From: a virus
Length of the DNA: 53,677 bases
Strand: one strand, 5' to 3'
Virus record (IMG/VR): IMGVR_UViG_3300020195_000033
Coordinates: 1 to 53,677 of that record
The stretch's first letter is position 1, and the number at the start of each line of letters is the position of its first letter. The position numbers and the translations under genes were made by a program. Of the stretch, positions 3,668 through 50,440 are shown in pieces. Under the pieces are notes generated by a model. The model was not told the DNA's origin. It saw only the letters and a program-made list of their open reading frames with translations, and ran no database searches.

Positions 3668-4272
3668 CAGGCTGTCATCTCCGTGATGTACACCGAACCA
3701 GACGAATTAACAGACCAGATACCGTCAATCGCACCTGTGAACACGGGGCTGGGTAACTCCAAGATAGCTCCGGCAACCAGCTTGTACGTGTAACTTGTCA
3801 CGCTTGCTGTCGCACCAAACTTCACGTAAAGAACCGACGTGGAGTCGTTCGTGAAGATCGCCCCCATGCGAGACGTGTTCGCTCCCAACAACGAGACACT
3901 CGCTGCCGAATCAGGCACAGCGGACAACGTCGCGGTCGACGCACGACCCGGCAGCATGAACTGTTGACCACGACGATCAGCAGCCAGCGACACCATGTCA
4001 CCATCAGCGGACATTGCTGTCGGGTTCGCGTTCGACGCGCGAGCACCAACCCTGAGCGTGTTGCCGCTGATTGCAGCATCGTCGGCGACACCGGCAAGAA
4101 CACTCCCAGTCTCACCAGCAACCGGCATACCCGAACTGGTGGTGACTTTCGTGAACACCCCGTCCGCACCAAACTCGTTCTTCACATACTGATGCTGCGC
4201 AGTGCCGTCATCATCCGTGGCGACCGGGTAGTCGGTGAGAACACCATTGTCGACGAGAACGTTGTCAGCCAT
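3667..4272 (-). CDS. Virion structural protein, tail tip region, 201 aa
   Basis: Starts at ATG 4272 (MADNVLVDNGVLTDYPVATD). The N-terminal segment with QHQYVKNEFGADGVF followed by a linker and a beta-rich C-terminal half resembles a common phage structural family in which a short N-terminus with a phrase like KxEFGADGxF precedes a small jelly-roll-like domain. No catalytic motif. It lies between the distal tail protein and the fibre, so an adaptor or tip protein is inferred. Its stop overlaps the start of the fibre gene. Confidence 0.65.
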   Translation of the reverse strand: MADNVLVDNGVLTDYPVATDDDGTAQHQYVKNEFGADGVFTKVTTSSGMPVAGETGSVLAGVADDAAISGNTLRVGARASNANPTAMSADGDMVSLAADRRGQQFMLPGRASTATLSAVPDSAASVSLLGANTSRMGAIFTNDSTSVLYVKFGATASVTSYTYKLVAGAILELPSPVFTGAIDGIWSVNSSGSVYITEMTA

Positions 4273-4291
4273 TGCGAAAATCTATCACGAC

Positions 4292-5614
4292 TTACGGCTC
4301 GACTTCGCGAGCAAGAATCTGGATCGTCGCATCCGGCCCGGTCGCCGCGCCATCAGAGCGGATACCGATGACGTACTTGCATGACGGGAGCCGTAGACAC
4401 GGATCGTGGAATCGGCCACCGACCCCAGCAAACACCGACGCACCGTTGACCGGTCTGATACCAGGCTGCTCGACACGCACTCCGCACATATCGCGCGTCA
4501 GTCGTGCACGCGCCGGAACGTAGGAAATCGAGAACCCGTTGCACGGGTTGCAGTCGTTGTAAAGCCCAGACGAATAGTCGTGCACCCCGAACTGTGGCCA
4601 GATCAGCACTTCCAAGTTCTGCAACTGCACCGACCCCGCGTTGACGATCACTTCCAGCTCGGAATCGAAAGTGCGGCCACCAAGATCAATGACGAAATAC
4701 TGCTCCGCACGGAACAGTGGCGGGCAGAAGCATGAAACTGTCGAATCCGCGGGCGGTACAAGAATGGGTGACGAGCAGTTCGGGTCCACCAAGAAGTCCG
4801 AAGCCTCGACACATTCAATCGTCGCGCAGGGCACCAGCACGCAATCGTTCAGCCCACCGACCGGTAACGCCGTCAGCGGCAGGAACTCGTAGCTGTCCAA
4901 GAACAGGTCCGCGTTAGCTTGCATCGTGAACATGATCCGAGTCAACGGCTTACACCCGCACGTCCCACACGAAATCCCCGACCCTTCAAGCACAGAAGGC
5001 TGCTCGACCATCTTCGCGTTCACCAACGTGCGCCACGGCGAAGTCGTCTCAGCCGGAGGCACCCACGACCCGCACGCAGACGGAACCTCTTGCGGGATAC
5101 ACGACATGAACCGCAACCGCGAACCTGAACACTGGGAGTCCCCGCAGCACCCGGCGAGTACCTTGCGGAGCGCGCGTAACCCAAACGCGACAGAGCAACA
5201 CGACAGCCCATGCAGGATCGCCTCGAAAGTCAGCGTGTACCCGTTCGACACGACAGGCTCGAACCCGATCGAGTTATCACAACGCGCGGTCGGATACGAC
5301 GTAACAGTCTGCGTGTTCGCTTCCAACCCGCTGACCTTTGTGACCTGCATCCCGAGGAAACTCGCGGACTCAGGACGGTTCACATCCCACCACCATGCGT
5401 CGTCGTCGACCGGATTCGTGTACGGCCCGAACGTGTACGGCGTCGACTCCCCCGCGGTCGGCATCCACGGCTCCACATCAGGGCAACACGCGTTACGAAC
5501 CTTCCCCGCGTTCACGCTATGAGCCTTCACATAGGCGAGGGTGCGCGCACAGTTCCACAGATCGAAGAACCCGTTGCGGTTACAACCGAAGAACCCGATC
5601 GCCTCAGCCGTCAC
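4292..5614 (-). CDS. Distal-tail-like minor tail protein, cysteine-rich
   Basis: 440 aa. The start was set at GTG 5614, which overlaps the tape-measure stop (GTGA); an upstream ATG at 5647 lies inside that gene. It is the first gene after the tape measure, the usual place for the distal tail protein. About 26 cysteines, including CC, CGTCGC and CNPC clusters, are striking for a virion protein. A motif like YTLTFEAILHGLSCC in the N-terminal half fits a beta-sandwich tail protein. Function is inferred from position. Confidence 0.7.
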   Translation of the reverse strand: MTAEAIGFFGCNRNGFFDLWNCARTLAYVKAHSVNAGKVRNACCPDVEPWMPTAGESTPYTFGPYTNPVDDDAWWWDVNRPESASFLGMQVTKVSGLEANTQTVTSYPTARCDNSIGFEPVVSNGYTLTFEAILHGLSCCSVAFGLRALRKVLAGCCGDSQCSGSRLRFMSCIPQEVPSACGSWVPPAETTSPWRTLVNAKMVEQPSVLEGSGISCGTCGCKPLTRIMFTMQANADLFLDSYEFLPLTALPVGGLNDCVLVPCATIECVEASDFLVDPNCSSPILVPPADSTVSCFCPPLFRAEQYFVIDLGGRTFDSELEVIVNAGSVQLQNLEVLIWPQFGVHDYSSGLYNDCNPCNGFSISYVPARARLTRDMCGVRVEQPGIRPVNGASVFAGVGGRFHDPCLRLPSCKYVIGIRSDGAATGPDATIQILAREVEP

Positions 5615-8600
5615 CCGTCCACCATCCTCGCCTTGTTCGCCCACCAAATCTTAGCCGCAGCATTCTCCGCCGAACCCCCGACAGCCTGCACCGTAATCGG
5701 TGGCATCTTCGCGACCGCTTCCGCGACCTTCCCGAGTCTGCGTGTCATCGCATCCACACGCGCGACTAGCGGCGACAAGTCCTGCACCGCTACAGCCGCA
5801 GGCGTCGCGTGAGCCTGACCGAGCATTCGACCGGTCTCCTTCCAGATCGCTACCGAACGATCACGCCACTTCGGAGCCATCGAAATGAACGCCTCACCCT
5901 GTGTCGACGGTTCCCCATACATCCAATGCGGTCCCTGAGCAGCCTGTGCCGCGCCGATGAAATGCGGTGCTGTCGCCTGCAACAACCCGCCAGCCTCAAA
6001 CCGGCGGATGACACCGCCAGCCTCAAACGGACCGCCGAACCGCAAGTCCCTCATCTGCCGCTCAAACTTCGACGAATCAGCCTCTAGGACGACCCGTAGC
6101 GTCCGCTCTGCGGTGACCTGGGCTACCAACGCCAGAATCTTCCGTTCAACTTCAGCAGAGGCTTCAGGGTCCATTTCGGGAGTGATCTCAGGGAAGTAGC
6201 CGCCCTCATTGAGCTGTGCGAGCGCATCAAGTTGCGCCTGAGCATCATCGAGTTTCCCAGCGTCAATGTTCGCCTGAATCGACGCCGCGATCACCGGCGA
6301 CTGCTTCGCAAGCTCAGATACCGCCGCGGTCATCGCTATAGCAGATTGCTCGTCCAGCACAGTCTTGAACGTGACCTCGTTCGCCCCATACGCACCCGAC
6401 GCGAGCGCATCATTGAACGTCTGAACGTCACCGCCCGCCTTCACGAAGTCGGCGCGCAGTTGGTCGATATTCGCGCTGAACCGCGCCTCAGCTAAGAGCG
6501 GGTCGCCCGACTCGTCGTAAATCGCCTGCGCTTCAGCAGTGAACAGGCCGATCGCTGACGCTAACGCCGCCTGATTATCACGACCTACAGCGAATGTCGG
6601 GTCGAGCGTCACCCCGATCTTGCGCTGCTTCGTGAACACTGAGTCCTTGCCGTCTAGCTTGTCGATCAACTCCTCAACTGCTGCTGTCGCTTCACGCAAG
6701 CTGATCTTCTTCCCGTTCAGCTTGTCCAGTTCCTCACTCACGCCTTTCAACGCCACGGACGCACGCTCAGACGGTGTAGCGAGCGCGCCGACCGCCGTGA
6801 TAAGCCCCGTAAAATCAGTCGTGCGGGTGTCGTCCAGCAGCCCCTTTGCCTCAGCCAGTTTCGTGAGGAACAGATCAAGTTGCCCCTGTGTCGTGATGAA
6901 CTCGACGTTGCCGATCTCCTTGAAGTTCGCGAGCAGTTTCGCTGCAACCGGATCAGACGCAGCTAGCGCTTCGACTGACGATCGAATACCACTTCCGAGT
7001 AGCTCGAACGTCTCAGTCGTGAACAATCCCGCTACTTGCAGCGCGCCGAACGCGCCGGTCAGACGGCGCGTAGCATGGTCAGAGGCTATAACCCCGTTGT
7101 TCAGATCGGCGTAGGCGCGTACGGCGCTGGCAGCTTGAGCGTCAGTCGGGAACACTCCCGAGAAATCCGTACCGCCCTTGCGGACAGCTTCCAAGAAAGC
7201 CAACGTCTTGTCTTGCGGGACGCCAATGGCTATGAGCGCCTGCTCAGCAGACGTGAACCCTTCCCTGAGAGCTAATGAAGAGGCTCGTATATCTTCCGGG
7301 GTCCCGAAGATTGAAAGTCCCGCGCCTGAGGGAAGTTCGATCTCCCGCAAGCCGAGCAGAGCGTCGTTCAGAATCCCGAGTGTCGTCTTGGCAAGTTCCC
7401 CGTTCTCGACGAGCAGCGCCAGCGCGTCGGCATCACTACCTAACGCAGAAATGTTCTCGATCAGCGCGTCAGTGACGCCTTCAGTGGCGGCTCGAAACGC
7501 TTTCTGTTGCTCGCTGGGGCCGTCGTCGCGAAACAGAAGGAACGCTGTCGTTGCCCCAGCTATCAGCAGTGTCAGCGGCCCAAGTGCACTCGCCGCGAGG
7601 GTCGCCCCGGTAGCAAACTCCGCGCCGAGAGTGACCACAGCAGTCCCGAGAGCGACAGCCGAGAGCGTGGCCGCGATAGTAGCGACTTGCCATACGATCA
7701 AGGCGTAAGTAAGTGCTTCGATTACCCCAACAGGGATAATTCCGATCACAGTCCCAAGCGCTTCGACGACTGTTGCGAACACTTCCAAGATCGGCGCGCC
7801 CGCATCGACCGCTACGAGTAACACTTCCAAGACGGTGACGAGCGGGTCGATCAGACGCGTGAGCAGCGGCAGACCTTTAGTGATAAGCGGACCGATCACC
7901 GTGAGCAACCGTCCGAACCCGTCGCCTACAGCCTCAATGAACGGGATCAGACGCGGCGCGGCGTTAGTCACGATCGAAGTCAGCGCCTTGCTCACCGTCG
8001 AGAACACGCCTTCAAGCTCCCCACCAATCTGCGCCGCGGAACCGAATACGTCGACAACGGTGCCCACAGACAGCGCCAGCGGGGTGAACGATCCGCGTGC
8101 GAGGATGGAGATGTTGTCTTTCAAGGTCGAGATTCGACCGTTGAGCGTCACTGACTGTCGTTCCATCGCCCCAGCAGCGCCAGGAAACTCGCGCATCCCT
8201 TGAATGAGGGCTTTGATCGCAGTGTCAGCGTCGAGAGAACCTGACTCGATCTTCTTTGTAGTCTCCTGCAACGTCAGCCCAAGCCCGGTTGCGATCGCTT
8301 GCGCAGCGTTGAAACCGGGGAGTGCCTCACGGATCTGATTCAGTTCTTGCGTCGCGACTTTGCCTTTGCCCTGAATCTGAGAAATCGCCAAGATCACACG
8401 GTCTACCGCGACAGTTCCTTGACCGAGAGTCGCTGCTACGTCACCGATAACGCCGAGCGTCGGTATCAGTTCGTTTCGGAACCCGCGCCCAAACGACGAC
8501 AGTAGTTTCTGCGCTGCACCAGTCAACTGCTCGAACTCGAACGGAGTCTTAGCTGCGAACGTCTGCAGATCACCAAGGAAGTCGTTGGCGATATCAGCGT

Positions 8601-17522: not shown

Positions 17523-19745
17523 TCACGGATTGGGGCGTTTGCGGGGCCGTTTCGCCATAAACGACTTCCAAGCCGCCGGGTCGTCGATCACGAGTTTCCC
17601 GCCCTCAGAGTGAGCGATGCCGACGAGCGACTTCCCGCTCATGTTCTCCGTCAGCGAGATACCGTCGAACAGCGGGACCATCTTCTCAAAGTTCCCAGCG
17701 ACCTGCGCGTGACCGTGACGAAGAACAGCCTGAGGAACAGTCCTTGATCGCGCCCGATTCCGACCGAGCGCGTCATTGACTGACGTGGTGACGTACACGC
17801 CTTCGGCCCGATAGCCGTGCGAACGGGCTTCAGCGACCTTCGATGCCACCGACCCGACGTTCCCGCCAACACCGTCGATCGTCACGTCGAACCGTTCACC
17901 GAGGCCGCGAGTCGCGATCTGCTTCGCTATGTACGAGGATTCTTCATGCGTGAAAGCGACACCCTTCTTGGGGTTGTACTCAGGCAGTTCCGCTTTGATC
18001 GCATCAGGGTCGACCTTGAGCCCGGTCGTTTTCAACACCGTCGATTTCCCTGACGCCGCGCCACCACCAAGCATCGTGAACGACGGCGGCGGTGAGTCTG
18101 AGACTCGACCTTGCGCGAGCGTATCCCCGATGATCCGTTCGTGTAGCGCGTGACGTTCAGCCGTGAACCGCGTCCCACCTTTGCCGTCCGATTCGAGATG
18201 CGCCATCGCTGAACCTTTGGCGAACGTGGCGAGCGTCTGATCGTCGAGCGTCGGACGGTTCTTGCGCGTGAACACCGGGGCAGTCGTCGAAACCTTCCCG
18301 CGCCCAGGGACACGGCGACCGCCCAAACCGAAACGGCCACCCGGCTGCCCCGTCGCCCCCGCGAGGAAGGCGGCGACAGCGGACTCGCCAGGATTCTGTG
18401 CAGCAGCGAGAAACGCTCGCGTAGCTGACGGCGCTACTTGAACGCTTGAACGCGCGAGTCGTTCAAGCAGCTCGCCACGCCAATCGAGCGGCTCCCAAGA
18501 CGTGACCAGCGCGTTAGCCGAAGCGGCCATCGCGAACTGCCGCCGCCCCGCCGTGTACGCCGAACGGAACCCTGGCGTGTTCACGACCTGCGCCGCGATC
18601 ATCCGATAGCGGCCCTCTTCCTCGATCCACCGCCAATCACCCGACAACGCAGCCTTCGAGATCACGAACCGGTCGCGCTCTGACAGACCAGGAACTAGAT
18701 CACCGGAAGCCCAAATGCCGTGCTCATCTTCGCGGTAGGTGACGACCGCAGCGGCGTACCCGGTGTCGGCATAATGCTGAACCGCCGCGGACACCGGCAG
18801 CCGAATGTCGGCGTGCGGTAACCCCATCGGGATGATTGCCTGCGAACCCGCAACATGCGCGTAGCGGTAGCCGTCACCGTCGACGGGCGGTTGCACACAT
18901 TTCCCGCGGCCTTCGCCGCCGTTCAAGATGCACGAACCCCACGGTGCGACCAGCGCATCAAACGACCCAAGGTGGCGGGCATCCAAGATGATGAGCGGGT
19001 GCGACGAGTCGACAAGCGGCGACCAACCGGCAGGCGCAGCGGTCAACGGCTTCTTCGCTCGCGTCACGTTCGGCTTGTCAGCCACCACTATCGCTGACCG
19101 ATCAAACACGACATAGTAAGACTCCGAACCGCCCACAACCCCAGCCGGAGGAATCCGCATAATCTGCGCGCCCGCGGTCATCGCCCGCAACCCTTGCTGG
19201 GCTTTGCTCTCAGGGGCATTCGGTGAGTAGTCCACGATCCGCGCATCACTCTTGATACCGATGGTAGTGACCAGCCCACCGGTGCCGCTTTCCGTAGACG
19301 GGAATCGCACCATCCGCCCATACGCGTCCGCTTCAGTCATCGACGGCGTTGTGTAAGTCCCATCACCGAACCGGCCTGAGCCAACCCAATGATCTCCGTG
19401 AACAAACTCGTCGTGAAACTCAAACGCTGACCCGGGCTGACCCGGCGAATCAGCATTCCCGCGATGCACGACGATCGCAATGTCACGTCGCGCTCGCACT
19501 TCGTCAGGAGTACCGACGACTTCAGGCTTCGACTTGTCAAACCCGAGTCGCTGATACGCCCACGCGGTCGGCTGCTTGCTCGGCGTGTCGGCATAGCGAG
19601 TGCCAGCGAAGTGCGCAGCAAGCCCAGCCTCATCCGGCATCTCATCGAGATTGAACCCGCGCCCCGGGTTACGCACACCGCCCTTACCGAACCGCCCACC
19701 AGGCTGCCCCGTCGCTCCCGCAAGGTACGCGAGAGTCGCGCTCAT
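17523..19745 (-). CDS. Virion-locus polyprotein: ADP-ribosyltransferase-like, capsid-protease-like and zeta-toxin kinase domains
   Basis: 740 aa from ATG 19745, which overlaps the portal stop (ATGA). Domain order: glycine-rich linker 1 (about residues 5-30, LAGATGQPGGRFGKGG); ART-like region (about 87-222) with VHRG, GDGTYTTPSMTEADAYG and ESYYVVFDRSAI; a domain resembling actinophage capsid maturation proteases (about 252-397: HADIRLPVSAAVQHYADTGYAAAV, SGDWRW, AAQVVNTPGF); linker 2 (about 457-483, LAGATGQPGGRFGLGG); and a P-loop kinase of zeta-toxin type (about 550-740) with Walker A GGGAASGKST and DPDAIKAELPEY. The protease part is expected to act in prohead maturation. The flanking modules look like virion-delivered effectors in the style of MuF polymorphic toxins. 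ART assignment is weaker because the final Glu motif is atypical. Confidence 0.75.
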   Translation of the reverse strand: MSATLAYLAGATGQPGGRFGKGGVRNPGRGFNLDEMPDEAGLAAHFAGTRYADTPSKQPTAWAYQRLGFDKSKPEVVGTPDEVRARRDIAIVVHRGNADSPGQPGSAFEFHDEFVHGDHWVGSGRFGDGTYTTPSMTEADAYGRMVRFPSTESGTGGLVTTIGIKSDARIVDYSPNAPESKAQQGLRAMTAGAQIMRIPPAGVVGGSESYYVVFDRSAIVVADKPNVTRAKKPLTAAPAGWSPLVDSSHPLIILDARHLGSFDALVAPWGSCILNGGEGRGKCVQPPVDGDGYRYAHVAGSQAIIPMGLPHADIRLPVSAAVQHYADTGYAAAVVTYREDEHGIWASGDLVPGLSERDRFVISKAALSGDWRWIEEEGRYRMIAAQVVNTPGFRSAYTAGRRQFAMAASANALVTSWEPLDWRGELLERLARSSVQVAPSATRAFLAAAQNPGESAVAAFLAGATGQPGGRFGLGGRRVPGRGKVSTTAPVFTRKNRPTLDDQTLATFAKGSAMAHLESDGKGGTRFTAERHALHERIIGDTLAQGRVSDSPPPSFTMLGGGAASGKSTVLKTTGLKVDPDAIKAELPEYNPKKGVAFTHEESSYIAKQIATRGLGERFDVTIDGVGGNVGSVASKVAEARSHGYRAEGVYVTTSVNDALGRNRARSRTVPQAVLRHGHAQVAGNFEKMVPLFDGISLTENMSGKSLVGIAHSEGGKLVIDDPAAWKSFMAKRPRKRPNP

Positions 19746-22720
19746 GCCAAGCCGAGAGTGATCGCACACGTACAGTTATGAACTACGATGGATTCGGCCA
19801 GATACCATCCAGTCACCGTTTGGAGATTGTAGACATGCCCCGCAAACCACCGCCGATTGACCTTGACGATCTGATCGAACGCTACGCAACCGGCGAGTCC
19901 CTCAAGACTCTCTCCCAAACGCTCAGCATCGACCGAACCACGCTCACCCGCAGACTCCGTGCTAACGGAGTCAGAATCAGAACTATCACCGAGCAGACCA
20001 TGATCTTCGCCGCTGCTCAGACTCCCGAGTACAGAGCCGCCAGAGCTGTCAACGCTCACGCCGCCAAACGTGGCGTTCCGAACTCTCCCGAGCACCTTGC
20101 CCGAGCTGCTATCGCTCGGCAGGCCAACCCGCGATGCAGCGCCAACGAAGTCAGACTCGCTGGCTGGCTCGCTGAACGCGGAATCGTCACTGTCCCGCAA
20201 GTAGCGGTCGGCCCATACAGTTGCGACCTCGCTGCCCACCCCGTCGCCGTGGAAGTCTTTGGTGGCAACTGGCACGCTACGGGACACCACGCCCGCCGAT
20301 TCTCCGAACGCACGCGTTACTTCCTCGATCACGGTTGGGCTTTGGTAATCGCCTGGGATCAGACCCGCGACCCGCTCAGCGTCCACGCAGCGGACTACAT
20401 CGCTGCCTTCGTCGAGCAAGCCCGCAGCGACCCATCCGTGGTCGGTGAGTATCGGATGATTCGGGGTTGCGGTGAGGAACTGTCCCGAGGCCGTGGTCAA
20501 CTCGATGACATCCCCCTCGTAATATCGCAGCGTCGCCCCCCGAGGCCCCGGTCCTGACACCACAGTCGAGCCGATGAAACAGTTGTAGTGATCGCCAGGG
20601 TATTGGGAACCGAACTCGTCGAACGACGACGCTGTGTACCCGTTGAACGACAGATGCACCGCGTCAGGCACCTTCGGAGTCCGGTAGTAGCCGTGTCGCC
20701 ATGTGTACGTCAATGCAGGGCTACCAACGCTGTCGACGATCGAGTCGCGCGTCATCGGCCCACCAGCGGCACCGGCCTGGATTGTCGCCTCCAAGTCTTG
20801 CCCGCCAGTCACAGAGAGAGCGCGACGGACGACCCCCGTTGGTAGCTCAGCTTCGGCGTTGGTCTGATGCCCGCCTGAGCCGACACGAAACCGGGTGTAA
20901 TCACGCATCGAGTCAGCGAGAGCCTGCCCGCCAGCCCGATACCGGTACTTGGGTGCGAACCCGCCGACCGCGGCCAGCAGAGCAACAGTGAACGCTCCAA
21001 GGGCGTGTTTCAAGTCCTGCTCAGCCTGCGTCGCGAGCGCCTTGTAATCGTCGTCAGTCACCAGCATTTCAGGGGTGATCCCGTACGCGGCAATGTCAGC
21101 CTCGGTGACAAGCGCAAGTTTCTCGGTCGACGTGTCGACAGTCGCCAGCCGTTTCTTCAAGTCTGACCCTGACGGCGCGATACGTGCGAGCCTGCGCGCC
21201 GCGTTGTCGATCGTCGCCGCGTATGCCATCCCCGCAGCCGCGGTCAACGCTACGACGAGCATGTGATCGACCTGAGATGCTTCCTCTAAGAGACGCTCAA
21301 TCGGTGTCTGACGTGGCGCTGCGGTGAGCTGTCGCGGTCCTGCTGTCACCGCGGCCGCGACGCCGACCGGCTCTGTGACAGCAGGACGCGCGCCCGCGTC
21401 AGCAGCCGGGGCTGCCGCGTCGGCTTTGAGTCCAAAGGCCATAGCCCACAGATCAAACTCTGACATACCCTCAGGAAGCGGGATCGGGTCCGCGTCGACA
21501 GCCTCAGCGACAGCTTGACGAGTAGCCGCGCCGACTTTATACGCCTCCATCAGATGCGCAGAGTTATCGACCTTCGAGCGAATCCGGTCAAGATCAGGAC
21601 CGATCGTGAACTGGCCTCTCGGCACTTCCCCAGTGATCGTCGTGTAAGCGTCCGTGAACACCTTGCGCATGACGACCCGCCAGATATCCGTAAGCATCAG
21701 AGTCGCAGTCGGTTCCACCGCGTCAGTAATCAGCGCTTCGAGAACGAACGCCTCATTCTCGAACTTCGCGACTCCCGGGCCGGAATGAATGTACTGCAAC
21801 GGGGTGCGAACCGATCGGGCGAACGCGTAGATCGCTGAATCCTCGAGAGTTTGCGACTGCGGGTCAGACACGCGCCCTAGATCGACCGTTTCGAGTTTGT
21901 CGCCCAGCATCGGGAACGGCACCGAGTCAACGCCGCGCCGCTTGTCGTGATAGCGGCGGGTGTCAGCTTTCTGAGCGAGCTTCAAGTAGTCAACGAACGC
22001 GTCAGGCATCCCGTTATACGGCGAACCGTCCTCGTCCTGGTAGACCTCTGTGCCCTGCCCGAATAGCAGAATCTTGTTTCGCACCAGCGGCGAAGTCGTA
22101 TCCGAATCTTGCCGAAGCTTCACATTGACGTACTCGCGAATGTGCGGCAACGCCCGCTTCAGATCGCAAGTCGGCTCACGCGGATCGCGGTCAAGCGGCT
22201 CCCAAGAACGCCACACCCGCTGGCCTTCGACCGGGACTTCGACCCATTTCTCAGTCATAGGGTCGCGGAACTTCACGATACGGTTTTCCCACTTCAGCTC
22301 GTCGCGGTGAGCGACAACGTAACGCCCATCGTCGAGACGCAGAATGAACGCCTCCCCATGCTTCAGCAGCAACCGAGAGTGACGATTCAGCAGCCCAGTC
22401 GTATCGCTGTACGGGCCGCGCCACGTTCGCCACACCCCAGCGAAAATCGACTGCGCTCTCTCGTCTGAGGAAACACGATCGCCGTCGTACAGCACAGCGC
22501 CACACGCGGCCACCTTCGCCGCCAGCAGATCGAGATACGAACCGACGAACCCTGGCCCCCACTCGTCGTACATATCCACTTCGGTCTGCCACGGAGCAAG
22601 AGCCGTCGCACGGTTCTGAGCGTTGTTCAAGTGCGCGCGAGAAACAGGCCCAGCCGCCGCTGTGATCGCTTGAGGCTGCTTAGCGCGCCATAGGCCCAAC
22701 TCGGTTGTCCTTCTCGTCAC
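19742..22720 (-). CDS. Portal protein fused to a MuF-like domain, interrupted by an intein
   Basis: 992-aa precursor from GTG 22720; an in-frame ATG at 22834 would add 38 Arg/Cys-rich residues that look non-coding. Portal region: MYDEWGPGFVGSYLDLLAAKV, LLLKHGEAFILRLDDGRYVV and FARSVRTPLQYIHSGPGVAKFENEAF. The MuF-like C-terminal region ends YTWRHGYYRTPKVPDAVHLSFNGY ... QYPGDHYN, followed after the intein by CTCAITLGLA. Splicing rebuilds the conserved DHYNCTC metal/cap motif and a protein of 723 aa. The portal forms the dodecameric DNA gate of the head. The next gene starts inside the stop codon. Confidence 0.85.
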   Translation of the reverse strand: MTRRTTELGLWRAKQPQAITAAAGPVSRAHLNNAQNRATALAPWQTEVDMYDEWGPGFVGSYLDLLAAKVAACGAVLYDGDRVSSDERAQSIFAGVWRTWRGPYSDTTGLLNRHSRLLLKHGEAFILRLDDGRYVVAHRDELKWENRIVKFRDPMTEKWVEVPVEGQRVWRSWEPLDRDPREPTCDLKRALPHIREYVNVKLRQDSDTTSPLVRNKILLFGQGTEVYQDEDGSPYNGMPDAFVDYLKLAQKADTRRYHDKRRGVDSVPFPMLGDKLETVDLGRVSDPQSQTLEDSAIYAFARSVRTPLQYIHSGPGVAKFENEAFVLEALITDAVEPTATLMLTDIWRVVMRKVFTDAYTTITGEVPRGQFTIGPDLDRIRSKVDNSAHLMEAYKVGAATRQAVAEAVDADPIPLPEGMSEFDLWAMAFGLKADAAAPAADAGARPAVTEPVGVAAAVTAGPRQLTAAPRQTPIERLLEEASQVDHMLVVALTAAAGMAYAATIDNAARRLARIAPSGSDLKKRLATVDTSTEKLALVTEADIAAYGITPEMLVTDDDYKALATQAEQDLKHALGAFTVALLAAVGGFAPKYRYRAGGQALADSMRDYTRFRVGSGGHQTNAEAELPTGVVRRALSVTGGQDLEATIQAGAAGGPMTRDSIVDSVGSPALTYTWRHGYYRTPKVPDAVHLSFNGYTASSFDEFGSQYPGDHYNCFIGSTVVSGPGPRGATLRYYEGDVIELTTASGQFLTATPNHPILTDHGWVAAGLLDEGSDVVRCVDAERVAGLIPGDYQSPTVIEEVTRAFGESAGVVSRSVPVATKDFHGDGVGSEVATVWADRYLRDSDDSAFSEPASESDFVGAASRVGLPSDSSSGKVLGRVRNATFGGVSVDSSGGSVLGSLSSGEDHGLLGDSSDSDSVSTESAGERGSVDAERLGESLEGLAGCVAFDQIVKVNRRWFAGHVYNLQTVTGWYLAESIVVHNCTCAITLGLA
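19775..20581 (-). mobile_element. Intein, 269 aa, in the portal-MuF gene
   Basis: Begins at Cys (codon 20579-20581): CFIGSTVVSG is a block A motif. TPNHPILTDHGWVAAGLL is block B with the conserved T-x-N-H. Near the end GHVYNLQTVTGWYLAESIVVHN is block F/G with terminal His-Asn, followed by Cys+1 of the C-extein. The middle contains KDFHGDGVGSEVATVWADR and a Ser/Gly/Asp-rich stretch with no LAGLIDADG or HNH motif. Splicing residues Cys1, block B His, terminal His-Asn and Cys+1 are all present, so it should splice. The opposite strand of nearly the whole intein encodes an endonuclease (19835-20557). Confidence 0.93.
19835..20557 (+). CDS. Vsr/EDxHD-like homing endonuclease with N-terminal helix-turn-helix, antisense to the intein
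   Basis: 240 aa from ATG 19835 with GGAG 9 nt upstream (19822-19825); an earlier ATG at 19778 is possible. Residues of about 8-50 form a helix-turn-helix (LIERYATGESLKTLSQTLSI, DRTTLTRRLRANGVRIR). Residues of about 100-180 fit the Vsr-like PD-(D/E)xK endonuclease fold: E105 (SANEVRLAGWL), D131 (YSCDLA), E140 and H147 (VEVFGGNWH) and a C-terminal helix then strand (RRFSERTRYFLDHGWALVIAWD). It is the only plus-strand gene in the virion cassette. Its codons lie exactly opposite the intein codons. Expected role: cut intein-less portal genes and drive homing. Confidence 0.85.
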   Translation: MPRKPPPIDLDDLIERYATGESLKTLSQTLSIDRTTLTRRLRANGVRIRTITEQTMIFAAAQTPEYRAARAVNAHAAKRGVPNSPEHLARAAIARQANPRCSANEVRLAGWLAERGIVTVPQVAVGPYSCDLAAHPVAVEVFGGNWHATGHHARRFSERTRYFLDHGWALVIAWDQTRDPLSVHAADYIAAFVEQARSDPSVVGEYRMIRGCGEELSRGRGQLDDIPLVISQRRPPRPRS

Positions 22721-22788
22721 GTCCCTAAGCGGTTGCGCGCAGGCTATCAGCCGACGCGGGCGCGAACATGGACGTGACGCGCAACCGC
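22715..22788. promoter_or_regulatory. Two interleaved 10-bp inverted repeats around the portal start
   Basis: CGTCACGTCC (22715-22724) pairs with GGACGTGACG (22770-22779), and GCGGTTGCGC (22729-22738) pairs with GCGCAACCGC (22779-22788). The order makes the two pairings cross. The probable GTG start of the portal (22718-22720) lies in the first arm. It could act as alternative hairpins controlling translation, as a pseudoknot (loop lengths of 0 and 4 nt make a full one difficult), or as a protein-binding DNA site. Confidence 0.5.
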
Positions 22789-22865
22789 CCCGACGCTGGC
22801 TCGTGAGAGCGATGGGATCGGGGCGGTCTTGCATGACAACTTCACTGAAGTCGTTAGCAGCAACT

Positions 22866-23433: not shown

Positions 23434-24291
23434 TCAGGCGGCGACAGCGAGCGGCACAGCGCGCTCGACGAGCCATGTCGTGGCCTTCTGAGCAGCCTGC
23501 GCCGCGGTCAGCAGCAGCGACGGATCGGCTTTCAAGACTGCGGCCCAATGTTTGATGTAGCGGGCGTGGTCGTCACGCTGCGGTAGCTCCCCGAAGTTGA
23601 ATGTCGCCGCGGTCAGCGACGCGCTGATCTCTGCGACCAGTTCCTCGGCAGCGTAGCTGTCAGACCCGAATCGCCCGGTTAGATCACGCTTCAGTCGTGA
23701 CTCATGGCCCGACCAATGAGCCAGTTCGTGAGCGACAGTTCCTACGAAACCCTCAGATGAGTGGAAGTTCTCGCGATCAGGCCAGCACACGGTGTCAGTC
23801 GCCGGTCGATAGCAAGGGCGGTCGACAGCGTACTTGAAGCTGAGATTTGCGATCGCTGCAACGAACCGGGTTTCGGCTTCAGTCACTTCGATCGGAGTCG
23901 CCGGGGTTGCTTCCCATCCGTCCTGTTGCGCCGCGTTGAACACGGTGAAACCGACCGGGATGAGTCCACCCTTCGACTTCACGCCGTCGACAGCTTCCGA
24001 CTTCGCAACCTCGACCCACTTGACCCCGCTCGTCCCGCGCTCACCCTTTCGGACTTGACCGCCGATCGCTGACCATTGCTTGTACGTCGCCCAGCGAGCT
24101 GTCGGATACTCATGCTCGATCTGACTCGCCCACAAGAGCAGAACGTTCACCCCGCGGTACGAGTTTCCGGTGCTCGCGTTTGTCGGGATCGACCCGCCGC
24201 CCGTCCAGCATGGCTTCCACGTTCCAGTCACGGTGTCGAGCGACCCGATCAGCGAGTCGACGAGCGCCTCAAGCGTGTCTTTCACCCTCAT
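23434..24291 (-). CDS. ArdC-type antirestriction protein with zincin-like metallopeptidase domain
   Basis: 285 aa. The N-terminal half resembles the ArdC ssDNA-binding domain (WKPCWTGGGSIPTNASTGNSYRGVNVLLLW, TYKQWSAIGGQVRKGERGT). The C-terminal half has HELAHWSGHESRL (HExxH at residues 188-192) and a downstream AAEELVAEISA supplying the third ligand, as in the metallopeptidase part of ArdC/TraC. Family role: protection of incoming DNA from host restriction. Translation is coupled to the upstream leaderless gene. A C-terminal helix follows (AAQKATTWLVERA). Confidence 0.88.
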   Translation of the reverse strand: MRVKDTLEALVDSLIGSLDTVTGTWKPCWTGGGSIPTNASTGNSYRGVNVLLLWASQIEHEYPTARWATYKQWSAIGGQVRKGERGTSGVKWVEVAKSEAVDGVKSKGGLIPVGFTVFNAAQQDGWEATPATPIEVTEAETRFVAAIANLSFKYAVDRPCYRPATDTVCWPDRENFHSSEGFVGTVAHELAHWSGHESRLKRDLTGRFGSDSYAAEELVAEISASLTAATFNFGELPQRDDHARYIKHWAAVLKADPSLLLTAAQAAQKATTWLVERAVPLAVAA

Positions 24292-49571: not shown

Positions 49572-49595
49572 ATGAGTGAGATGGTAGCCCGATGA
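49572..49595 (+). CDS. 7-aa leader mini-ORF before the HNH endonuclease
   Basis: AGGAGG (49561-49566) precedes ATG 49572 by 5 nt; MSEMVAR and a TGA overlapping the next ATG at 49592. The endonuclease is therefore expressed only by coupled re-initiation or through the mini-ORF. Confidence 0.5.
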   Translation: MSEMVAR

Positions 49596-50440
49596 GCGCC
49601 GCACCCGTTCCACCAGAAGTTAGGTTCTGGTCCCGAGTGGCCAAAGGGACTAACGACGAATGTTGGCTCTGGCAAGGACCGCGTAGTCCGCTGATGGGAT
49701 ACGGACGATTCAACGACGGCACAAGAATAATAATGACGCACCGCTACTCCTACGAGCTAACTATCGGGCCAATCCCTGAAGGACTGTCCGTCTGCCATTC
49801 CTGCGACACTGGATCGTGCGTCAACCCTGCCCACTTGTGGCTTGGGACGCATCTCGACAACATGCGGGATATGTCAACGAAGGGACGATCACTAGTCGGG
49901 ACTCGTAGCCCGCGGGCGTACCCCACCGAGGTCGTTGTGGCTATCAGGGCAGCAGTAGCAGCGGGCGCTACGCTCAGAGAAACAGCAGAGAGGTTCGGGG
50001 TCCACCACAACACTGTCTACCGGTACGTCAAACGGTTGCGCCACCGTGACGTCGTGCCTGCGCCAACGTCTGCCCCCGCTCGCGCTGCCATCACTGAACA
50101 CAACCGCAACGCGGCGGAGCGCGAAGTTGCGCGCTTTGATCGAGTCCGTGATGAAGCCGTGAGGTTGTACCGGTCTGGACTCAGTACTGTCGGAGTAGCC
50201 ACCGCGTTAGGGACTCACCCTGGGAACGTTTCACGGATGCTTAGGGATCGTGGAGTGAAGGCCAGACCGCAGCGGTTGTGGACTGACGAGCAGGAAGCCG
50301 AGATAGCAGATGACTTGCGGCGACTAGGTTCAGTGCGGCCAGTGATGGAGAAGTGGCCGATGAGCCGAGCAGTTGTTTCTCGGATTGGGCGCGATCATGG
50401 CGTGCATTTAGTCGTTGGTCGACGTAAACAGACTCCCTAG
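49592..50440 (+). CDS. HNH homing-type endonuclease with HTH modules, 282 aa
   Basis: The N-terminal HNH_3-type domain includes THRYSYELTIGPIPEGLSVC followed by HSCDTGSCVNPAHLWLGTHL (Cys ligands and NPAHL). Then helix-turn-helix units (ETAERFGVHHNTVYRYVKRL, STVGVATALGTHPGNVSRML). This layout is that of free-standing phage homing endonucleases. Isolated between two hairpins, so it may be a recent insertion. Confidence 0.88.
   Translation: MSAAPVPPEVRFWSRVAKGTNDECWLWQGPRSPLMGYGRFNDGTRIIMTHRYSYELTIGPIPEGLSVCHSCDTGSCVNPAHLWLGTHLDNMRDMSTKGRSLVGTRSPRAYPTEVVVAIRAAVAAGATLRETAERFGVHHNTVYRYVKRLRHRDVVPAPTSAPARAAITEHNRNAAEREVARFDRVRDEAVRLYRSGLSTVGVATALGTHPGNVSRMLRDRGVKARPQRLWTDEQEAEIADDLRRLGSVRPVMEKWPMSRAVVSRIGRDHGVHLVVGRRKQTP

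Follow-up and report, generated by a model that had tools for sequence, protein, structure and literature searches.

A phage head-gene intein with a probable homing endonuclease gene on the opposite strand of its own coding sequence

Canonical inteins normally contain their homing endonuclease as an in-frame fusion read from the same strand (PMC3943268). Antisense homing endonuclease genes, independently expressed and active, are known from nuclear group I introns (e.g. I-DsqI, PMC9548176), and in phage methylases a ShiLan-type insertion hides an HNH endonuclease out of frame on the same strand (PMC11855218). A passage of the latter paper that deals with overlapping frames cites a preprint on the 'non-canonical architecture' of actinobacteriophage inteins (10.1101/2025.01.02.630785), which, to go by that citation, may already cover part of what follows, e.g. 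the Gordonia cases. Here we describe a head-protein gene in a 53,677-base viral record, IMG/VR IMGVR_UViG_3300020195_000033 (the whole of which we call the window), that is very probably interrupted by a mobile intein whose homing endonuclease gene is encoded antisense to the intein itself. The original prediction for this locus, made from its sequence without database searches, regarded the arrangement as without precedent; our search of an open literature library likewise found no description of an endonuclease antisense to an intein, whereas antisense endonuclease genes in general, and hidden out-of-frame insertions, have the precedents just cited.

The host gene is read from the minus strand, where an open reading frame at 19742-22834 translates into a 1030-aa precursor: a phage portal protein (its portal part matches PHROG 776 in a profile search, E = 9.7e-9), probably with a C-terminal MuF-like domain, split by an intein. 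By translation, the N-extein (751 aa, 20582-22834) ends in ...GDHYN before Cys1, the 269-aa intein runs from Cys1 to Asn269 (19775-20581), and the C-extein (19742-19774) consists of CTCAITLGLA and a stop. On the plus strand, a 240-aa reading frame (ATG at 19835, stop at 20557) covers 723 of the intein's 807 nt, and codon boundaries are common to both frames, intein residue i lying exactly opposite residue 250-i of the antisense protein. The original prediction had already given the intein's limits, the extent of the overlap, the shared register and a ribosome site for the antisense gene, all of which are borne out by translation and by the computed facing of the residues. The Shine-Dalgarno site, GGAG at 19822-19825 (plus strand), is the antisense of Leu-Gln codons of intein block F and stands 9 nt before the ATG, which is itself opposite the His codon CAT of that block (GHVYNL).

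The four splicing blocks first noticed in the intein (CFIGST, TPNH, VVHN and Cys+1) are all present in the translation, as C1-F-I-G-S-T at the start, T39-P-N-H42, V-V-H-N269 at the end, and the Cys+1 beyond it; C1, T39, H42, G49 and N269 are invariant in an alignment of 29 relatives. Profile matches have significant E-values but scores below the cut-offs (Pfam Intein_splicing PF14890, E = 1.3e-5, 25.5 bits against a curated cut-off of 35.8; TIGR01445, E = 2.3e-4, 22.1 bits against 24.5), these cut-offs being a convenience of the profile libraries and not a biological criterion; because the anatomy and HINT fold are those of an intein, we regard it as a divergent member of the class. The best Foldseek matches of the modelled intein are Mtu RecA mini-inteins (probability 1.00, E 2e-4 to 6e-4). 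In the model the N-terminal HINT half (residues 1-66, blocks A and B; 20384-20581, minus strand) and the C-terminal half (residues 230-269, blocks F and G; 19775-19894, minus strand) have predicted local distance difference test (pLDDT) values of mostly 86-98 and of 88-97, respectively. Between them, residues 69-229 (19895-20377, minus strand) are predicted to form a mostly disordered loop (pLDDT mostly 29-65), with one short ordered helix around residues 81-95. The N-terminal half overlaps the C-terminal part of the endonuclease, and the loop lies opposite its folded core. By anatomy and fold this is a class 1 HINT intein, predicted to undergo protein splicing. One relative, read from a minus-strand open reading frame in L125, seems to start with Ala instead of Cys (HPNGR/AEVEGN) and keeps the C-terminal HN/C; it may splice by another route, or may be dead.

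The antisense product is, by sequence profile and modelled fold, an EDxHD/Vsr-like homing endonuclease with a helix-turn-helix, predicted to cut DNA, in agreement with the original prediction. On its own it matches the Pfam family REase MTES_1575 with E 4e-4, below the curated cut-off; 29 of 30 aligned antisense proteins match this family, and many match helix-turn-helix families. A profile of the 30-protein alignment recovers from the PDB the catalytic domain of I-Bth0305I (3r3p, E = 2e-4), along with a Vsr-like protein and Vsr. The AlphaFold model of the 240-aa protein (mean pLDDT 90) has 3r3p and Vsr as its top Foldseek matches (probability 0.99-1.00, E 0.01-0.035), similarity thereby appearing in sequence and in fold alike. 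The catalytic domain (residues 103-175; 20141-20359, plus strand) contains E105, D131, E140, H147 and R159, which align to 3r3p and are invariant in the 30 proteins; the helix-turn-helix (residues 10-43; 19862-19963, plus strand) appears as three helices in the model. Some endonucleases (in L239, L241, L244, L246 and L010) have an apparent second, tandem N-terminal helix-turn-helix repeat, which extends the intein loop by ~50 residues. In L187, a second, distant Vsr-like endonuclease (5169-5621, minus strand) is encoded directly upstream of the intein-bearing portal-MuF gene, on the same strand.

This two-strand layout is kept among relatives. With tblastn, the antisense protein matched 109 phage records and the intein 125. 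The best matches listed for the antisense protein lie on the strand opposite genes named MuF, head morphogenesis, minor capsid or hypothetical protein, and the layout explains why such genes are annotated as just 'MuF' or 'hypothetical'. The records of the Jerseyvirus and Snoke inteins recognize them as inteins, and one record also lists the antisense open reading frame, as a hypothetical protein. In IMG/VR, the window's antisense protein retrieved 46 loci (32-49% identity), 45 of them with the endonuclease wholly antisense to the intein, both frames open and in the same register; the intein as query retrieved four loci only. A scan with conserved alignment motifs yielded at least 534 relatives, and all 80 that were kept have the same layout, as do 7 of 8 genome-contig loci; the eighth, L141 (Rhodococcus), was a false match, an unrelated protein sharing the string EVFGGNWH. 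The 153 distinct inteins from phages, prophages and viral contigs form 131 clusters at 60% identity. A near full-length EDxHD endonuclease lies antisense in 151 of the 153, the only stops inside these matches being natural C-terminal ones, and the remaining two have an antisense endonuclease of another kind. The endonuclease stop falls exactly opposite the second intein codon, a Leu codon, in 55 of the 131 clusters. Inteins from Klebsiella, Edwardsiella, Aggregatibacter, Vibrio and Helicobacter were suspected of lacking the endonuclease since they were not among the listed tblastn matches to it; the profile finds an antisense endonuclease in each.

We propose that the minus strand would give a head-protein precursor, from which the HINT domain (residues 1-66 plus 230-269) would excise itself and join the exteins, and that the plus strand, with a ribosome site of its own within block F, would give an EDxHD/Vsr-like endonuclease with a helix-turn-helix. 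This enzyme would cut intein-less head genes at the conserved Asn/Cys codon, and the element would spread when the break is repaired from an intein-bearing copy. Empty sites were sought by joining the two flanks without the intein and searching them as one query. Among Gordonia phages the joined flanks give an unbroken match in at least 60 of the records listed (83-95% identical), with query coverage of 80% or more in 74 records; at the Salmonella phage site the match is likewise unbroken in 273 of 334 records, mostly Salmonella phages. Vividuovirus phages have head proteins 98-100% identical over the 110 residues before the site, yet carry three different inteins at the same Asn/Cys codon: that of Sedona and Kewpiedoll, that of Vivi2, Angelicage and Fosterous (35-36% identical to the first), and that of Nordenberg and Barsten (27-35%). 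Presence/absence polymorphism and the replacement of one intein by another at a single site resemble active homing, which argues against a reading in which the antisense protein is made but does not home, serving instead to repress late genes through its helix-turn-helix, for example, or to cut the DNA of rival phages. The N-terminal helix-turn-helix would suit such a role, antisense expression could affect the head gene, and some phage homing endonucleases have been co-opted, but the invariance of the catalytic residues in 30 sequences also speaks against it, and we consider another role unlikely.

The common codon boundaries allow any one-base difference in a codon between two relatives to be scored for its effect on either protein. 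We did so for 12 independent pairs of the EDxHD type, giving conditional omega values with 95% intervals. In the core, endonuclease omega given intein change is 0.11 (0.08-0.14), i.e. amino-acid change is suppressed ninefold, and the intein is weakly constrained at 0.49 (0.32-0.68). In the overlap with the N-terminal HINT half the values are 0.36 (0.26-0.48) for the endonuclease and 0.18 (0.11-0.25) for the intein, and in the C-terminal HINT tail beyond the endonuclease the intein is at 0.09 (0.04-0.17), with the antisense frame unconstrained (1.75, 0.43-5.42). In the adjacent extein, taken as a control, the antisense frame is neutral (0.84, 0.54-1.69), compared with 0.06 for the head protein. 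Purifying selection therefore acts on both frames, on each in the regions that its fold would lead one to expect and on the two together in their overlap. With a folded endonuclease core opposite a disordered intein loop, conflict is confined to the two ends, where the C-terminal part of the endonuclease faces blocks A-B and its first 20 residues face the C-terminal HINT half. A functional endonuclease within a sense frame that is merely a tolerated, non-splicing insertion would fit the predicted disorder of the intein's middle and its weak constraint in the core; it would leave unexplained why both HINT halves are constrained and fold as an intein, why C1, TxNH, the terminal Asn and Cys+1 are kept, and why the insertion interrupts a phage head gene at a conserved motif, and we judge it quite improbable.

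The translation signals of the antisense gene are also maintained. In relatives, TGGAGG-N8-ATG is conserved upstream of the endonuclease, antisense to intein block F, and the intein residues alone do not dictate this ribosome site and start; synonymous choice preserves them. In 63 of 82 clusters the block F Leu is encoded by CTC, a codon used for 282 of 1118 Leu residues in exteins (P = 9e-21); the His is encoded by CAT in 70 of 87 clusters, compared with 155 of 355 (P = 4e-10). Both P values are inflated by cluster relatedness, but the odds ratios are 5 to 10; these preferences build GGAG and ATG on the other strand. A ribosome-site match of at least 4 bases accompanies 62 of 88 endonuclease starts, compared with 27 of 396 antisense starts in exteins. 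Under exact codon alignment, antisense stops arise solely from TTA, CTA and TCA codons, which make up 1.5% of codons in the exteins just upstream. The open stretches, defined by absence of stops, span a median of ~270 codons and match the endonuclease in position; across the 131 clusters, 37,005 antisense codons contain 0 stops against 531 expected from extein codon usage. The window's GC content of 0.61, and a register with few sources of antisense stops, would favor a reading in which GC-rich genes simply keep such an antisense frame open and nothing but the intein is functional, but this is scarcely credible, being ruled out by the stop counts, by selection (the core omega of the endonuclease against the neutral extein) and by the extein and tail controls, and contradicted by the endonuclease-specific fold and catalytic residues, by codon choice favoring the ribosome site and start, and by AT-richer loci that stay open (L193, GC 0.40, openness by chance P ~1e-15).

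Several points nevertheless weigh against the interpretation as a mobile two-strand intein. We infer splicing, cutting, antisense transcription and homing from the protein families, beside an anatomy, a joint conservation, a dual selection, translation signals and, in relatives, a site polymorphism that are observed. The Pfam scores of both window products (Intein_splicing and MTES_1575) lie below the curated cut-offs, a search for an intein-less allele of the window's own gene found none, and a scan of the plus strand for sigma-70-like promoters found no consensus. The loci were gathered mostly by endonuclease similarity, so inteins that have lost their endonuclease are under-sampled, and the 12 pairs in the selection sample, like the clusters, are still related among themselves.

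The intein of Gordonia phage Nordenberg (L242) has no match to the EDxHD profile, and its codon-aligned antisense frame reads ...AAYVAAFIDGEGTVTVGK... The product resembles a cyanophage endonuclease (E 2e-6), itself linked to LAGLIDADG by Pfam (E 0.003), and the LAGLIDADG enzyme I-MsoI (E 0.0013); the Nordenberg protein's own Pfam score is weak (E 0.26). Between Nordenberg and Barsten (L251) the antisense protein is 92% identical and the intein 73%, and in the core 36 changes are silent in the endonuclease only, compared with 7 that alter it. Given that a LAGLIDADG-like frame lies antisense in the same register in these phages, the two-strand layout probably arose twice, in EDxHD-type and LAGLIDADG-like form, the second case so far comprising one phage genus. 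A different arrangement is found in L049, where an intein-less MuF gene (HPNCACTLV...) and a free-standing EDxHD relative converge (the two genes occupying 3947-4678, plus strand, and 4616-5377, minus strand), the relative overlapping the last 63 bases of the head gene, insertion site included. The antisense frame is broken at this locus, which counts in favor of the two-strand reading for the inteins; its endonuclease keeps the catalytic EVFGGNWH, and the residues opposite block B (consensus Y-R-V/M-I-x-G) are partly kept. In the window, M208-I209-x-G211 of the endonuclease faces H42-N41-P40-T39 of the intein, and the L049 pattern suggests that part of the C-terminal conservation of the endonuclease is imposed by the intein. 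On this one case, a free endonuclease gene beside the site may resemble an ancestor or intermediate.

As for the host gene, the original prediction called it 'portal-MuF', of which the portal part holds in the window and the MuF part in relatives. MuF profiles gave no match to the window precursor, and a profile built from the head-protein ends of relatives gave no match to the window extein. Relatives bearing the same intein type have Pfam Phage_Mu_F upstream of the intein, and we infer a MuF-like domain in the window gene from these relatives and from the HYN/CTC site. Directly downstream of the head gene is a large protein (17523-19769, minus strand) with a C-terminal Zeta-toxin/AAA kinase-like domain. 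Elsewhere the window encodes an ArdC-like antirestriction protein with ArdcN and zincin-like metallopeptidase domains (23434-24291, minus strand) and an HNH_3 plus HTH_23 protein that looks like a free-standing homing endonuclease (49592-50437, plus strand); an Rfam search of the window found no RNA element.

Long antisense overlaps of two functional proteins have rarely been demonstrated. With more than 130 divergent cases and internal controls, two-strand inteins allow direct tests of how selection acts on overlapping frames, of sense/antisense coding in codon alignment and of what entanglement costs; they also provide natural models for engineered gene entanglement (compare PMC12455656). 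Frameshifts in the endonuclease would also destroy the head gene, which suggests that a homing endonuclease could in this way avoid decay. It is tempting to generalize that two-strand inteins form a class of mobile element found widely, in the phages of many bacterial phyla, that the layout arose at least twice (EDxHD- and LAGLIDADG-type), and that entanglement with an essential head gene shields the endonuclease from decay after fixation; we regard this wider proposition as evenly balanced.

Among described enzymes, I-Bth0305I and Vsr share the catalytic domain of the antisense proteins by sequence profile and fold, but I-Bth0305I was deposited as a mobile intron protein, whereas the present proteins have an N-terminal helix-turn-helix and lie antisense in inteins. 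Dassa and colleagues (2009) reportedly described free-standing EDxHD endonucleases between the halves of split-intein genes; these would likewise tie an EDxHD-like enzyme to inteins, but stand free between two half genes, without overlapping the intein. The introns of the I-DsqI type also place their endonuclease on the strand opposite the host gene, but the enzyme is of the His-Cys family, the intron is a self-splicing one in ribosomal DNA, and the opposite strand is intron RNA with no protein-coding frame. In ShiLan-type cases a phage gene carries an in-frame insertion whose second frame hides an endonuclease, but one on the same strand, of the HNH family, and with no detectable intein or intron. 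The canonical inteins of PI-SceI type have in common with the present ones a HINT domain, the C1/TxxH/HN/Cys+1 residues, insertion at a conserved residue of an important protein and a mobility inferred from polymorphism. In those the endonuclease and the intein share one strand and one reading frame; in the window the in-frame loop is predicted to be disordered, and a separate endonuclease would be made from the opposite strand, antisense and codon-aligned, an arrangement that would break the usual picture of an endonuclease necessarily fused to its intein.

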